29,240 bases of DNA, taken from positions 1 through 29,240 of the IMG/VR virus record IMGVR_UViG_3300037508_002095; one strand, written 5' to 3'. The notes beneath the pieces are model-generated. The model saw nothing but the letters and a program-made list of their open reading frames with translations. It searched no databases and was not told the DNA's origin. Source of the stretch: a virus. Numbering within the stretch: position 1 is the stretch's first letter; the number at the start of each line of letters is the position of its first letter. This document shows positions 13,818 to 29,240 of the stretch, one piece after another. A program made the translations under genes and the position numbers.

Positions 13818-14243
13818 ATGCCCGTTGACTTTACAACCTATAGCAATACGCTTCAGGCGCGATTAAACGGCGTCTCGGGTGCAACTTCTGCTACCGAGCT
13901 CTTGCTGCTTGCCAAAGCTTCGGAGTCCTCTATTGGTAATGCCAATGTATCGGCCGTGAATGCGGCAGGGACTTCACAAGTTTCTTCCGTTAATGATGCC
14001 GGGACTGCAAAGGTTAATGCGGTCAATGCAGCGGGCATTAACCAGATTACGGCCGTCAACAGCGCAGGCGCGAATCAGATCACGGCGGTGAATAACGCAG
14101 GCGCTGCCTGGCTCAATGGTTCGCAGCCGATCCCGGCTGCCGTGGTTGCGCAGATTCGTGGCCCACAAGGTGCGCAAGGCGCACAAGGTCCGGTGGGCGC
14201 AACGTTTTCAGTCAGCGGCTCAACGCTCACGATCAACTGGTAG
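13818..14243 (+). CDS. Tail-fibre protein with 11-residue and collagen-like repeats
   Basis: A 141-residue product up to the TAG at 14241. After the N-terminal head (VDFTTYSNTLQARLNGVSGATSA) it has at least four consecutive 11-residue repeats of the type VN-x-AG-xxx-V/I-xx (about nt 13950-14105), expected to form a trimeric coiled coil, then a collagen-like GPQGAQGAQGPVG segment and a short strand ending TLTINW. GAGGTGAG precedes the ATG. The same frame stays open after the TAG for 157 further codons to 14714, so the protein may extend by read-through. Confidence 0.75.
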   Translation: MPVDFTTYSNTLQARLNGVSGATSATELLLLAKASESSIGNANVSAVNAAGTSQVSSVNDAGTAKVNAVNAAGINQITAVNSAGANQITAVNNAGAAWLNGSQPIPAAVVAQIRGPQGAQGAQGPVGATFSVSGSTLTINW

Positions 14244-14354
14244 ACGCGTACGCCCTCCCAGTCAATCAATCTGGCCAGTGTTACCTATGTTCTGGGCAAC
14301 GGATCTGCGTTTAACCGCTTAAATCGACCGGGTGGCACGAGGCTTTGGGAGCGG

Positions 14355-14714
14355 GTGTGGGTTTCATCGGGCTATAACCAGTATGTGAGTCAAGGCTACT
14401 GGTATGACCCGCCGGGTTACTACCAAACCCTCTATGGGCGCAAGACCGGGTGGTGGGATACGAGCGGTGGGGGTGAGGCTGTACAAGTCTGGGGTGTCGC
14501 TGAAATGTGGGGCATGCTTGAACCTTACTTCCAAGCGCCCTCACCGATGGGCTACCAGGGCTGGCTTCAAGTGACCGGTTTTTATGGCTACCCCAATCTG
14601 TGGCAGTGGTATAACGATAATGATTACACCGTTTATTACGATCCGGCACCCTATTGGGTAGAAACCGGCTACTACCGCTGGATCGATACCTCGTACTGGG
14701 CTTACTACTACTGA
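14355..14714 (+). CDS. Tyr/Trp-rich tail protein segment
   Basis: A 119-residue frame with 22 Tyr and 12 Trp (34 of 119; plus 2 Phe). It contains two YDP motifs in related contexts (YWYDPPGYY and VYYDPAPYW) and ends in YYY. It lies in the same frame as the fibre gene upstream, separated by one TAG and 37 sense codons. Its own GTG start at 14355 has a GGGAG only three bases before it. It is therefore either the C-terminal domain of a read-through fibre or a separate protein. I do not know a family for it. Two genes downstream lies a tryptophan halogenase, which makes it a candidate substrate. Confidence 0.6.
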   Translation: MWVSSGYNQYVSQGYWYDPPGYYQTLYGRKTGWWDTSGGGEAVQVWGVAEMWGMLEPYFQAPSPMGYQGWLQVTGFYGYPNLWQWYNDNDYTVYYDPAPYWVETGYYRWIDTSYWAYYY

Positions 14715-14809
14715 GGCATCAGGACTATTACAAAGTTTGACAATGCCGCAAACGCTAAGGCCAAGCGCTGTTAACCAACACCTGTAACCAACCTCTCTAA
14801 AGCGAAACC

Positions 14810-15232
14810 ATGACCGACGTTACACACGAAATAGCCCACGACAAAGCGCCCGATCCACCGATGATGATCGTACCGGCCAACCCTCGGGCCAATGTCTCGA
14901 TCCTGCGTGAGGGGCGGCATATTGCCGGGCCCACGCGTCCAGTGTTCTCCTTTGACTACGATGCGATGCAGTTTTCCATGAACGTACGCAGCTATGTGCA
15001 CGCAGGCGTGGAAGTCATCATGAATGAGGCACAAATCGCTGAGGTGCTTGATTTTTTGAATAACCTTGATGTAAGCGAAGCGCGCAGCCGACGCTATGCG
15101 CAAAGCCGACAGCTCATCGACTATCTGGCCAGTACCGACTGGTATGTGATCCGCGCCCTTGAGTGCGGCGTGCCGGTGCCCCAGGACGTGAGCGAGGCCC
15201 GTGCAAGGGCGCGTGAGGCGATCCAATGGTAA
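14810..15232 (+). CDS. Tail-fibre assembly-type protein
   Basis: A 140-residue protein in two parts. The N-terminal part is polar with a short beta-rich domain (ANVSILREGRHIAG, FSFDYDAMQFSMNVRSY). The C-terminal half carries the motif YLASTDWYVIRALECGVPVPQD followed by SEARARAREA, which is the tail of many small phage tail-fibre assembly/chaperone proteins. Its ATG lacks a good ribosome site. Its stop overlaps the halogenase start (ATGGTAA), so the two are coupled. It may deliver or hold the fibre for modification; that is inference. Confidence 0.55.
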   Translation: MTDVTHEIAHDKAPDPPMMIVPANPRANVSILREGRHIAGPTRPVFSFDYDAMQFSMNVRSYVHAGVEVIMNEAQIAEVLDFLNNLDVSEARSRRYAQSRQLIDYLASTDWYVIRALECGVPVPQDVSEARARAREAIQW

Positions 15233-16683
15233 GGCGCCATGTGCTCATTGCAGGCGGTGGTACGGCCGGTTGGTCGACTGCGGCGATCCTCTCAGCCAAC
15301 CCCGCACTGCATGTCACGGTGCTCGACCCAAGCACGATCCCGAGCATTGGCGTGGGTGAAAGTACGCTTCCCCACTTACACCTGGCCCATAAGGCGATGG
15401 CACTGCCAAGCCTGCAAACCGAGGCCTGGGCGCGCGCGGTCGATGCCACGGTGAAACTGGGGATTGCGTTTGAGGATTTCTATGAAAAGGGCGCACGCTG
15501 GTTACACCCCTTTTTAGATGCTGCCGATATCGATCGGATCCGATTGGGGGCGGCCCTTCGCGCAGGGGCGCTTGCGCAGGCGCCCGATCAGTGGGCCTTT
15601 GCTGCCGAGCACACCTGGGCAGGGGCCAAGCTTGAAGGGGGCTTTATCGAGCGAAGCACCTGGTTTGAGCGCTACCGGGTGGCTGCGCATGGCGGAGGCG
15701 GTGCCTTTCACATCGATGCCTTGAAGTACGCCGCGCTACTTAAACAAGAGGTGCTTGCGCGCGAGAACGTTCAGGTGCTTGATGCAACGATTGCTCAGGT
15801 GCACTGCGATGATCGTGGGGCGGTTTCAAGCATTCTTATCGATGCGGGTCATGCGCTTTGCGCTGATCTTTACATCGATTGCACAGGCTTTGCAGGCGTA
15901 CTGGCTCAAGCGGTGCAATCACCATGGGTCTCGGTGGCTGATCGCCTCCTTGTCGATCAGGCCTGGGTGGTGCAACTCCCCTTCGTGGACCCCGCCAGAC
16001 AGCGCATGAATCTGACCCACTGCCAGGGCTTGCCTGAGGGTTGGGTGTTTCATATTCCGCTTCAAAGCCGCATCGGCACGGGCTATATCCATGCAAGCCG
16101 CTATGTGGATACGGAGAAAGCGCAAGCCGATTTCATCTCGCACCTCACCCGACGCTGGGGCTATGCGCCCGAAGCGATCGAGCCGCGCCTTGTGCGCTTC
16201 AAGACGGGCTTTCGGCCCAAGCTGTGGCATCACAATGTGGTGGCCATCGGTTTGAGTGGCTTTTTTTGCGAGCCCATCGAAAGCACGGCCATAGCGTTGG
16301 GTCATTACGCTGCGATGCTTTTAGCGCAATACCTTCATGCAGCCCATGTGGCGCCCGATGCCTTGCGGGATCGCTATAACGCGGAGATGCGTGAGCAACA
16401 CGACGATGTGCTCGATTTTGTGCAAAGCCACTATCTATTAAGTGCTCGCACGGACAGTGCCTTTTGGCGTGACTATGGCCGCATGAGCAGGCCCGAAGCA
16501 CTTGAGCGCGTTATCAAAGCCTTTGAAGGTAACGATGAGGCGCTGATTGAGGATGCCGCCTTTCGTGACCTGATGCAGCGACGCTTTGGGATGTTCCATG
16601 GCTTCTCCTACGTCGCACTGCTGATGGGTCATGGGTTAAGACCAGGCTTGCCGTCTGCAGCCAAGCATCTTGCACTGGTATGA
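15226..16683 (+). CDS. Flavin-dependent tryptophan halogenase
   Basis: A 485-residue member of the PrnA/RebH-type family, which uses reduced FAD, oxygen and halide to halogenate tryptophan or related aromatic groups. Visible features are FAD-binding GGGTAGW (10-16), GVGESTLP (42-49), a Lys77 in DATVKLG that lines up with the catalytic Lys79 of PrnA, and FFCEPIES with Glu352 matching PrnA Glu346. The usual WxWxIP signature reads WVFHIP (273-278) and FxxPxxSxG reads with Ala at the end, so substrate or mechanism may differ. GAGG precedes the ATG. No flavin reductase is visible, so a host enzyme would supply FADH2. Codon/base use is GC-richer than the fibres (39 of 60 in 15241-15300, against 31 of 60 in 19141-19200). 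Viral halogenases are known from cyanophages. Confidence 0.9.
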   Translation: MVRRHVLIAGGGTAGWSTAAILSANPALHVTVLDPSTIPSIGVGESTLPHLHLAHKAMALPSLQTEAWARAVDATVKLGIAFEDFYEKGARWLHPFLDAADIDRIRLGAALRAGALAQAPDQWAFAAEHTWAGAKLEGGFIERSTWFERYRVAAHGGGGAFHIDALKYAALLKQEVLARENVQVLDATIAQVHCDDRGAVSSILIDAGHALCADLYIDCTGFAGVLAQAVQSPWVSVADRLLVDQAWVVQLPFVDPARQRMNLTHCQGLPEGWVFHIPLQSRIGTGYIHASRYVDTEKAQADFISHLTRRWGYAPEAIEPRLVRFKTGFRPKLWHHNVVAIGLSGFFCEPIESTAIALGHYAAMLLAQYLHAAHVAPDALRDRYNAEMREQHDDVLDFVQSHYLLSARTDSAFWRDYGRMSRPEALERVIKAFEGNDEALIEDAAFRDLMQRRFGMFHGFSYVALLMGHGLRPGLPSAAKHLALV

Positions 16684-25687: not shown

Positions 25688-26842
25688 TTAAGCAGAAAAG
25701 ATGAAGCGAGTACCTGTTGAGGAACGGATCGCACGTGGCCCCAATGCGTTAGCTGCCATCGTGATAAACGTTTCACCGCTACAGTGCATCGGAATCAGAA
25801 AGTCGGCATTAAATTGCTGTAACTCTTCCAGCGTCTGCTTTTGGTACTCGGGTGTGTGCGGGGCTAAGTGAAAACCACCCATGATTGCGTGGATTTTATC
25901 GATCTTTGAGACCTTAATGGCTGTCTTTACAGAGTTGACAATCCCTCGATGTCCGCAAGAGGTCATGATCACTAGGCCTTTACCTTTAACGTGATAGACG
26001 GTGGCTTGCTCATGCTCAAAGTCATCGGGCACATTCATCGCTGTTCGCTTCTTCTCCGATAGCCCCTCTGGCATGCATCCCAGCGCGCCTTGCATACCCG
26101 CTGACATGCGCGTCGGAGAAAGCACACGCTCAAAGGAATCTGCAGCAATGAATCCTGTGGTAAATCCGTGATCAGCTAAAAGCGATGGGCGTTCAGCGAA
26201 CGTGACAACAAGTCCCGCTTGCTTGATAGCTTCACGGTCTAGGGCGCCAAAGCTACCCGGGTTACCTGGAACGTTTAATTCTCGAGAGCAAAAACACTCC
26301 TCACTACCCAGATAGAAGGGAAGATCCTTCTTGAGCTTTCCCTTATTTGCCTCTAAAAAGCCAACCATGCCACCGAAGTGATCGTAGTGGCCGTGGCTAA
26401 GCGCTATGGCATCGAGCTTTGAAGGATCAATGCCAAGAATCAGCATGTTATTGATCAGGGTTTCCGATGTCCATGCGAAATCAATGAGAACTTGTCGACT
26501 CTGACCGCCCGCGGTCGATTCCAAATGCAAGGCAAGGCCCCATTCATTTTGAAGGGCACGCTTCGGAGGCTCATTCGGCTTGACAGTAAAGCCAGCACGT
26601 TGGACTTCAAGGCTTCCAATCTTGAGAGGGCGCTCAAACGCATGGTGATATGAATCGGTTACGACACGAACCGCAAGTCGATCAACTTGGGGAATGGTGT
26701 TACCAAGCGGCTGCGCAGTGGCTACACGCGCACCGAGTAAACCGCCAGCCGCTGCCGCTGCTAACGAAGTTGGTCCAGCTTTAAGCAATTGACGACGACC
26801 ACGATTGGCCAAATAGCCGCCTTGTTCACTCACTCGATCCAC
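25688..26842 (-). CDS. Tat-exported metallo-beta-lactamase-fold hydrolase
   Basis: A 384-residue protein. The N-terminus has the twin-arginine motif GRRQLLKAG (Arg16, Arg17), a hydrophobic stretch, and an ATA cleavage site near residue 43, so it should go to the periplasm folded. The catalytic signature HGHYDH is at residues 150-155, followed by GG; later TSCGHRG, GGFHL and MHCSGE supply further metal ligands, in the style of the COG1237 (MptA-like) dihydropterin MBL group. Substrate unknown. GTG start with GGGAG six bases before it. It runs against the flanking virion genes and is chromosome-like cargo. Confidence 0.8.
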   Translation of the reverse strand: MDRVSEQGGYLANRGRRQLLKAGPTSLAAAAAGGLLGARVATAQPLGNTIPQVDRLAVRVVTDSYHHAFERPLKIGSLEVQRAGFTVKPNEPPKRALQNEWGLALHLESTAGGQSRQVLIDFAWTSETLINNMLILGIDPSKLDAIALSHGHYDHFGGMVGFLEANKGKLKKDLPFYLGSEECFCSRELNVPGNPGSFGALDREAIKQAGLVVTFAERPSLLADHGFTTGFIAADSFERVLSPTRMSAGMQGALGCMPEGLSEKKRTAMNVPDDFEHEQATVYHVKGKGLVIMTSCGHRGIVNSVKTAIKVSKIDKIHAIMGGFHLAPHTPEYQKQTLEELQQFNADFLIPMHCSGETFITMAANALGPRAIRSSTGTRFIFSA

Positions 26843-27018: not shown

Positions 27019-29240
27019 ATGCCTCGCGATCTCTTTCAAGAAGCCGGAATCACACTTTCTCGCCGCGATGCGCAAGGGGGCCGGGATCTTTTCGCTGAAG
27101 CGGGCATTTCGATTGCGCCAAAGACGCGCAGCTTTACCGACGAAGTAAGCGATCTGGGGACTGCGGTTTGGCAAGGTGCTAAGAGCACGGGCCGAGCACT
27201 TTCAGCATCGCTTGATACCGCCTTAAATGATCGCGCCGCTGTTGAGCAAACGGCGGGCGTTGACCGAGCCGCCGTCACTGAGCAGCCTTCGGCACAGCGC
27301 GCTCTGATGGATGAGATTGCCAGACGCAAAGCACTTGATACGGAGCCAGGCGTGCTCTCAGCAATACGTAATGTGGGCGCTGCCATGCTGGATAACAAAT
27401 CTGGCAGTGCACAGTTTTTAGCAAGTCAGCTACCCAATACTGCCGTCTCGCTAGGTACTGGGATTGCAGGGGCTAAAGGCGGTGCGGCACTTGGCGCACT
27501 AACGGGCCCATTCGCACCCATTGCAGTCCCCGTACTTGGTACGGCTGGCTTTCTCGGTGGCATGTTTCTTGGCAATACAGCCCTTGAAACAGGCTCTAAA
27601 GCGATCGATAAAGCTGCTGATGGGTTCACAGAAAGTGAACGCTCTGACGCACTTCGAGAAGGTGCCATCAAAGGCGGTGTGATTACAGGTATCGATGCAG
27701 CCACACTCGGGCTTGGCGGCAAGCTCGCAAAAACCTTTAATCGAGCAAGCGCTGCTGCAGGTCGATCGGCGCCTGGGATTGGAATGCGTGCGGCTCAGCT
27801 TGGCACCGGTGTTGCGCTTGAAACCGTAGGCGAGGGCACGGGCGAGTACTTCGGTGAGCTTGCCGCAACCGGTAAGCCTGATATTTACGATGCCGTGCTT
27901 GAATCGGCTGCAGGCTTATCGCAAAGTGTGCCGCAAGCGCTGTGGTCGGTGAGGCAAGCTAATCAGAGGCCTCTAGACGCTGAACCAACTTATGCACCGG
28001 TCAATGCACCGCAACCGAGTGCCGAGCCGCAGAACCCTTCAATTAACGCAAGCCGACAAGATCCGATCAATCAGACGCCGCGTAACAATGATCAGAGCGT
28101 TCTACCAAGTCAGGTCATCGAAAGTGATGCCGTAGCTTTAAGCGCTGATCAAAGTGCAGCTAACCAACGTACAGCTGATCAACGTACAACGGATCAAAGC
28201 CAAGCTGATCAAATTTCGAGCGCCGATTCCAATCTACAAAATCGAGATCGATCGCGGCTTGCATCAGTGGCTCAAATGCAATCGATCGCAAGAGCACCCG
28301 ATTACCTGCGCTTAGGACCAAGCCGCACACCTGACTCTGGTGCACCGATGGTCTTTGCTCAAGGCGACGATCTAAGCGCGATTCCAGAGCACCACTTTGG
28401 TAAATCCGATATCGCAGTGATGGCTGATGGCCAAAGGGTACCTTTTCGGTATGCCGTCGTTTCAGCCGATGCCGTGCAAGCCTCACATAATCTTGATGGC
28501 TCGGTGAATGCGCGCATTTCGTCCGAGCAGCCAGGCACACTCAAAGCACTAAATAATGGTCGTGTTGCAGGCTTGCGTGGTGCCTATGAGCAAGGCAAAG
28601 CTGCGATCTATCAAGCAGAGCTTGTCTCCGATGCTGCCAATCACGGGATTGACCCCGCAGCGATTGCACTGACACCGAACCCCGTGCTTGTCCGTGTTTA
28701 TAGCGAGCAGAGCAATACCGCCAACATGGCACAAAAGAGTCAAGGCCAGGGCCTGGGGATGTCGCCTGTGGAACTTGCAAGGCAAGATGCTCAGTTGATG
28801 GACTCAAGCGTATTGTCTGCCTATCAAGAAGGTGATGTATCAAGTGCTGATAACCGAGACTTTGTGCGCGCCTTTGTGGGCAAACTTGCGGGCTCTGGTC
28901 AAGACATTGCAACCCTCATGACAGCGCAAGGCCACTTATCGCCTGCTGGCCGAACACGTATTCAGGCAGCACTTGCGCAAGCCGCCTTTGATGATAGTGA
29001 TTTGGTCGCTGAGCTTTTCGATTCGATGGATACCGATATCAAGGGGATTGGTGAGGCCTTAAAGCAAGTAGCAGGGCAGTGGGCCAATATGCGGGACTCA
29101 GCGCGCGTTGGTGTGATTGACCCCCAGCAAGATGTCACCAAGGATTTAATGGATGCGGTGGGACTGATTAAGCGTGCCAGGCAAGAGCGCCGATCGCTTT
29201 ATGAATTACTTCGCCAGCCTGATCTGCAAACCGGCCAGCC
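27019..29240 (+). CDS. DdrB/ParB-like internal virion protein, 3' partial
   Basis: The frame runs from ATG 27019 (in-frame TAG at 27007 before it) past the right edge: 740 codons are visible. The N-terminus holds a short repeat (RDLFQEAGI, then RDLFAEAGI). A Gly/Ala-rich hydrophobic stretch at about 146-195 (GLALGAL..PIAVPVLGTAGFLGGMFLG) could insert in membrane. A Gln/Asp/Thr linker (about 374-400) leads to RDRSRLASVAQMQSIARAPDYLRLGPSRTPDSGAP and a later NPVLVRVYSE...QGLGMSPVELARQDA, the pattern of the DdrB-like ParB domain found in phage polyvalent proteins (about 408-590). Likely an ejected internal protein that acts on DNA inside the host. Confidence 0.65.
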   Translation, partial: MPRDLFQEAGITLSRRDAQGGRDLFAEAGISIAPKTRSFTDEVSDLGTAVWQGAKSTGRALSASLDTALNDRAAVEQTAGVDRAAVTEQPSAQRALMDEIARRKALDTEPGVLSAIRNVGAAMLDNKSGSAQFLASQLPNTAVSLGTGIAGAKGGAALGALTGPFAPIAVPVLGTAGFLGGMFLGNTALETGSKAIDKAADGFTESERSDALREGAIKGGVITGIDAATLGLGGKLAKTFNRASAAAGRSAPGIGMRAAQLGTGVALETVGEGTGEYFGELAATGKPDIYDAVLESAAGLSQSVPQALWSVRQANQRPLDAEPTYAPVNAPQPSAEPQNPSINASRQDPINQTPRNNDQSVLPSQVIESDAVALSADQSAANQRTADQRTTDQSQADQISSADSNLQNRDRSRLASVAQMQSIARAPDYLRLGPSRTPDSGAPMVFAQGDDLSAIPEHHFGKSDIAVMADGQRVPFRYAVVSADAVQASHNLDGSVNARISSEQPGTLKALNNGRVAGLRGAYEQGKAAIYQAELVSDAANHGIDPAAIALTPNPVLVRVYSEQSNTANMAQKSQGQGLGMSPVELARQDAQLMDSSVLSAYQEGDVSSADNRDFVRAFVGKLAGSGQDIATLMTAQGHLSPAGRTRIQAALAQAAFDDSDLVAELFDSMDTDIKGIGEALKQVAGQWANMRDSARVGVIDPQQDVTKDLMDAVGLIKRARQERRSLYELLRQPDLQTGQ

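Follow-up and report, generated by a model that had tools for sequence, protein, structure and literature searches.

Several flavin-dependent halogenases (FDHs) from the biosynthesis of ribosomally synthesized and post-translationally modified peptides, among them SrpI, MibH and ChlH, work on tryptophan within peptides. SrpI places bromine on the C-terminal Trp of its precursor peptide (PMC10858898), and the peptide-acting enzymes also include MibH, which acts on a lantibiotic Trp (PMC10858898, PMC12615548). By analogy, a peptide Trp, including a C-terminal one, can be the substrate of an FDH, although the substrates of these enzymes are natural-product precursors and not virion proteins. FDHs are also encoded by phages, as is the case for VirX1 of cyanophage Syn10 (PDB 6qgm) and for the gp41–gp42 pair of Synechococcus phage syn9, encoded after two genes for Gly-rich tail fibres and a small phrog_1787 gene. 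The locus described here offers a concrete, co-inherited candidate for the natural substrate of a phage enzyme. It lies on the plus strand of the window, by which we mean the whole stretch analysed (29,240 bases, IMG/VR record IMGVR_UViG_3300037508_002095), and comprises a collagen-like fibre gene (positions 13818–14243), a Tyr/Trp-rich gene for a putative fibre tip (14250–14714), a small Tfa-like chaperone gene (14810–15232) and an FDH gene (15226–16683). The best reading of this arrangement, in our opinion, is that the FDH probably halogenates its own cognate fibre tip. The window enzyme shares the fold and the catalytic residues of VirX1 (profile E=1e-83). The VirX1 and syn9 systems differ, however, in several respects: identity is about 29%, the FDHs are in tandem, the fibres are Gly-rich, and there is neither a Tyr/Trp-rich tip nor a chaperone with the DWY motif.

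The original prediction, made from the letters of the window, had named the absence of co-occurrence in related phages as one observation that would speak against a fibre-modifying halogenase. On the contrary, tip, chaperone and FDH genes are present in the same order and on the same strand in 13/13 viral contigs that have either an FDH of the clade described below or a tip of this family (the window, L002, L003, L004, L006, L011, L012, L187, L193 and L196–L199), representing eight FDH lineages with 36–99% identity to the window enzyme or between members. The carriers are freshwater and marine viruses of bacteria, several of them unrelated to one another, and come from many samples. The search with the FDH returned L002, L003 (99%) and L004 (79%), while that with the tip returned L006, where it is followed by the chaperone gene and then by an FDH gene of 38% identity. 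A wider FDH profile added L011 (45%) and L012 (37%), where the other two genes are present too, and a wider tip profile added L187, in which chaperone and FDH follow; the last FDH profile yielded L193 (56% to L187) and the near-identical L196–L199 (42% to L187), and each of these contigs has tip and chaperone genes as well. It was the tip query alone that led to L006 and L187, and each of the two has an FDH; among the contigs found by tip or FDH searches, no tip-family gene lacking an FDH was seen.

In each of two maximum-likelihood trees, a single clade unites the tip-linked FDHs (support of 100 in the SH-like approximate likelihood ratio test, SH-aLRT) and lies beside other phage FDHs. None of those other phage FDH genes (0/87) has the tip or the chaperone, which rules out a link of the aromatic tip to phage FDHs as a whole, and none of the cellular FDH loci (0/74) has both genes; the neighbours of cellular FDHs provided no source for the tip either. 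By automatic count, tip and chaperone occur together in 8/10 clade loci versus 0/87 other phage FDHs (Fisher p=3e-10, a value that overstates independence because the clade shares ancestry). The two misses within the clade were those of the gene caller, and the genes are present by direct reading.

The exchange of these genes constitutes stronger evidence than the p-value for co-occurrence. Between L011 and the window, both flanks are 90–96% identical at the nucleotide level, whereas tip, chaperone and FDH belong to a different set, with amino acid identities of 42, 40 and 45%, respectively. The opposite holds for L003: the cassette, positions 13818–16643 of the window, is 96% identical in nucleotide sequence, while the rest of the 7.7 kb of L003 is an unrelated backbone that shows no nucleotide similarity to the window. 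From this reciprocal mosaicism it follows that the genes are exchanged as a unit, the three moving as a block between phage backbones. L012, in turn, is a fragment of a large phage that encodes a clamp loader, DNA ligase, thymidylate synthase and dihydrofolate reductase of its own and lacks any match to the P22 portal, so that the gene set also crosses phage types. Searches for T4- and T7-type portal families in the L012, L187, L193 and L196 phages gave no match, and the controls were likewise without match. From these comparisons we conclude that the association is real and old, that it is specific to a single FDH clade and that the genes involved move as a unit.

The FDH (485 amino acids) is a full-length member of PF04820 (E=1.5e-97, residues 6–474 against 2–447 of 458) and matches phrog_2928 (5.5e-94). 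The predicted halogenase with intact flavin adenine dinucleotide (FAD) motifs and catalytic Lys and Glu was borne out: GGGTAG (FAD-binding, residues 10–15, positions 15253–15270), GVGEST, Lys77 (15454–15456, aligned with Lys79 of PrnA and RebH) and both Glu349 and Glu352, in the EPIE stretch of the catalytic glutamate region (16270–16281), are all present. The ratio of non-synonymous to synonymous substitution rates (dN/dS) is 0.11–0.13, and the enzyme is under purifying selection. Its relatives in the PDB include Thal, RebH, PrnA and VirX1. With the first three it has in common the fold, the FAD motifs and the catalytic Lys and Glu, but the residues corresponding to their clamp are not conserved in the window enzyme, which ends just past the clamp region. 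We take the free-Trp clamp of Thal and RebH to consist of Tyr454, Tyr455, Glu461 and Phe465, a numbering that fits Thal; the equivalents are D/A/M/M in the window FDH and are not conserved across the clade, the alignment being locally uncertain. The loss of these residues would fit a substrate other than free Trp. No flavin reductase was recognised among the scanned window proteins; FDHs of this kind usually draw FADH2 from the host.

The composition of the tip gene is extreme. The segment at 14355–14714 encodes the 22 Tyr and 12 Trp in 119 residues on which the original prediction had drawn (P about 3e-21 against 3.6% Tyr plus Trp in the other window genes) and has, jointly with its own relatives, the highest 80-residue count of the two amino acids in a set of 874 genes from the viral loci covered. 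The same prediction had this segment follow the fibre gene in frame. This is literally true of the window, in which the frame is open across the amber TAG at 14241–14243 and the conserved start position lies six bases further on, but the amber codon separates the two genes, and a fusion is wrong for this genome family. The reading frame of the tip differs from that of the fibre in L002 and L011, in both of which the tip gene opens with an ATG of its own; that of L011 is situated about 26 bases past the fibre stop. The codon at the position of the ACG of the window (14250) is ATG in L004 and GTG in L003. Given the difference in frame and the separate start that most relatives possess, the tip is a gene in its own right, of about 154 codons and starting near 14250, and not the end of the fibre gene. 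Read-through of the fibre gene into the tip is ruled out by the same observations and by the lack of a suppressor transfer RNA, no transfer RNA gene having been found in the window. The first canonical start codon is the GTG at 14355, and a start there would cost a conserved N-terminus; the ACG may be an uncommon initiation codon, an error in the sequence or a start that has decayed.

Between the window and L004, Tyr and Trp of the tip are kept more often than other residues (33/36 versus 83/117, p=0.013), and dN/dS is about 0.1, with dS saturated. The protein ends in DTSYWAYYY (14685–14711), and the pattern [D/N]x[S/T]YWxY[F/Y]Y is kept in the window-like members, L011 and L196; we infer that this C-terminal aromatic motif of the putative tip could be a region of recognition or modification. 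In L196–L199, the motif, here DTSYWTYFY, closes a protein whose upstream domain matches tail-fibre families of PHROG (phrog_30742, 1.6e-21). That the tip apparently forms the C-terminus of a tail-fibre protein in these phages supports its identity as a fibre tip, and in the window, too, it adjoins a fibre gene, the collagen-like one. A profile search of the PDB with the tip returned only chance-level matches, and there was no match in GenBank phages.

The third gene (140 amino acids) recalls the Tfa proteins that accompany phage fibres. As in Mu Tfa and the gp24–gp25 pair of phage Pam3, a small gene immediately follows the tip, and its product has N-terminal strands that vary and C-terminal helices that are conserved, the general layout of Pam3 gp25 itself (PMC9608196). 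Its C-terminal motif is TDWYVIRxxExGxPxPxDxxxARxxAR, and the C-terminal match to phrog_4912 (tail fiber assembly) is weak but recurrent, with E=0.00095 in the window and down to 6.9e-6 in a homologue. The AlphaFold2 (AF2) model (mean predicted local distance difference test score, pLDDT, 84) has N-terminal strands and C-terminal helices. A fold search of the PDB with this model gave no match at E<=0.001 to a solved Tfa or to any other protein, and there was no sequence match either. The prediction of a fibre-assembly-type protein is thus upheld by the phrog_4912 matches and the predicted layout but not by structural similarity, which lowers the case for membership of the Tfa family and leaves the analogy as it was. 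Phage fibre and Tfa pairs further differ from the present loci, in which the chaperone is coupled to an FDH. As predicted, the stop of this gene overlaps the FDH start, by 7 nucleotides in the window, and the two overlap in 9/10 distinct loci.

Taken together, the locus would be a swappable receptor-binding cassette, composed of a collagen-like stem, a Tyr/Trp-rich tip, a Tfa-type chaperone and an FDH dedicated to the tip. The chaperone would fold and present the tip, and the FDH would act during or after folding, consuming O2, halide and the FADH2 supplied by a flavin reductase of the host. Chlorine or bromine might be placed in this way on one or more Trp or Tyr residues of the tip before it joins the virion, perhaps within the S-Y-W-x-Y-(F/Y)-Y motif at its C-terminus, and the likely benefit would be an altered receptor contact or a stabler tip. 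The activity of the enzyme, its substrate, the modified residue, the presence of the tip in the virion and an effect on receptor or defence are all inferred here. The proposal that the phage halogenates its own fibre is, in our view, strengthened by the co-occurrence, the block exchange, the fibre context in L196–L199 and the lost free-Trp clamp, while the in-frame fusion that formed part of it has to be given up. We lean towards a broader proposition as well, in which a virus halogenase modifies Trp or Tyr of its own receptor-binding tip, enzyme and tip are inherited and swapped as a matched pair, and other FDHs adjoining fibre genes, including the VirX1-type locus with its Gly-rich fibres, may modify fibres and not be metabolic cargo. 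The original prediction knew of no phage described as doing this, and we likewise saw no such proposal in the phage-halogenase papers found, which does not prove the absence of any report. If this holds, there are viruses that halogenate the proteins with which they bind their receptors, a virion modification of which we found no report, and the enzymes, as natural halogenases of whole proteins, would interest protein chemists.

A number of observations weigh against halogenation of the tip. The association covers a single FDH clade and could reflect one ancient linkage kept by block exchange. In the comparisons with L006 and L012, the conservation of Tyr and Trp does not significantly exceed that of other residues, and aromatic richness falls from 24% in the window group to 9–14% in L012, L187, L193 and L196, so that richness itself is not the conserved feature. 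The tip gene of the window has no canonical start at the conserved position. The AF2 model of the tip is of low confidence (pLDDT 62) and fold searches with it gave no match; therefore, surface exposure cannot be judged from it. Finally, the FDH signature WxWxIP is altered in four members, with WVFHIP in the window (16042–16059, the second Trp being replaced by Phe), L002 and L004, and WVFNIP in L011. This last point may hint that the protein is not a halogenase but an enzyme of the same fold whose flavin chemistry oxidises, hydroxylates or cross-links the aromatic tip, for instance through dityrosine. The aromatic pairs of the tip could indeed be cross-linked, and genes for 2-oxoglutarate (2OG) oxygenases often lie close to other phage FDHs. 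Nevertheless, such an activity is rather improbable, given that the Lys, the Glu and the two FAD motifs have all been retained and that L006, L012, L187 and L196 keep WxWx[IV]P (as WVWNIP or WVWNVP).

Alternatively, the FDH may act on a small molecule, such as free tryptophan, indole or a host metabolite, in an auxiliary metabolic or antibiotic-like role, its adjacency to the tip being due to its carriage as cargo of the fibre region and to block exchange. Readings in print are of this kind, namely antibiotic protection (PMC2984593), a halogenated secondary metabolite (PMC7824862) and an auxiliary metabolic gene (PMC10452541). Moreover, VirX1 iodinates many small molecules in vitro (PMC8407142), and unrelated genes sit in the host-recognition regions of T4-like phages (PMC7029224). 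Yet no pathway genes lie beside the FDH in the window, and hitch-hiking leaves unexplained why tip, chaperone and FDH change jointly while both L011 flanks stay, why the linkage is 13/13 across 36% identity and different backbones, and why the free-Trp clamp is lost; we thus regard a small-molecule substrate as unlikely. Elsewhere, phage tail regions encode glycosyltransferases and other enzymes for which a role in altering host surfaces has been proposed (PMC7029224), and the target might accordingly be the host surface or a competitor, with receptor masking or superinfection exclusion as the outcome. This would account neither for the co-exchange with tip and chaperone nor for the fact that the genes for chaperone and FDH overlap, and seems very improbable. 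A chance co-location in one phage, or an assembly artefact, might have been suspected, the window being one metagenomic contig whose tip gene has ACG as an unusual start; the recurrence of the arrangement in 12 further contigs, from many samples and with divergent sequences, already contradicts it and makes it scarcely credible. Halogenation of the cognate tip hence remains the reading that we prefer.

FDHs outside the clade show associations of another kind. Among 110 neighbours in 25 such loci, 24 match phrog_863 and 23 match Gly_rich_2, both of fibre type, while about 25 are 2OG-Fe(II) oxygenases. Within four genes of the FDH, Gly-rich fibre or phrog_1787 genes are found in 25/66 loci and 2OG oxygenases in 36/66. 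In the cultured phages syn9 and Sf-FP1, the FDH comes after Gly-rich fibre genes and a small gene, which in syn9 is phrog_1787. The FDH of HTVC008M is located between a dioxygenase and the terminase, and the fibre link of phage FDHs is therefore not universal. The order of Gly-rich fibre gene or genes, small phrog_1787 gene and one or two FDHs, in several cases followed by 2OG-Fe(II) oxygenases, was noted in L016, L024, L050, L073, L083, L179 (syn9) and L181 (Sf-FP1); this parallel, cyanophage-type layout is perhaps a second fibre-modifying module. The Gly-rich fibre gene gp39 of syn9 (L179, positions 1594–2769) looks like a tandem duplication with an apparent frame change in the middle, which leaves an odd stretch and end that are not Gly-rich. 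By eye, the cellular FDH of L101 (77–3306) adjoins SapC-like and cupin/JmjC-type genes, possibly another protein-modifying association. MT835646.1 (L182), listed in GenBank as "Bacteriophage sp.", was rejected as an FDH phage, its open reading frames looking like those of a bacterial contig.

Profile matches of the structural genes indicate that the window derives from a podovirus-like phage. Its portal is of the P22 type (PF16510, 1.2e-129), its major capsid protein belongs to Phage_capsid_3, and it further encodes tail proteins of the phrog_511 and phrog_31 types and a Phage_tail_APC chaperone. The collagen-like gene upstream of the tip, 141 codons long, confirms the fibre gene of the original prediction; its VNxAG repeats are succeeded by GPQG repeats, it terminates in GPVGATFSVSGSTLTINW (...TINW) before the TAG stop, and its match to phrog_1806 (collagen-like minor tail) is weak (E=0.056). 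Directly 3′ of the FDH lies the phrog_511 gene, with a lysozyme gene near the portal, and in L003 and L006 a lysozyme-type lysis cassette, recognised by eye, comes after the FDH. At the end of the contig, a gene of the metallo-beta-lactamase fold on the minus strand lies beside a gene with a ddrB-like ParB domain (25688–26842 and 27019–29238).

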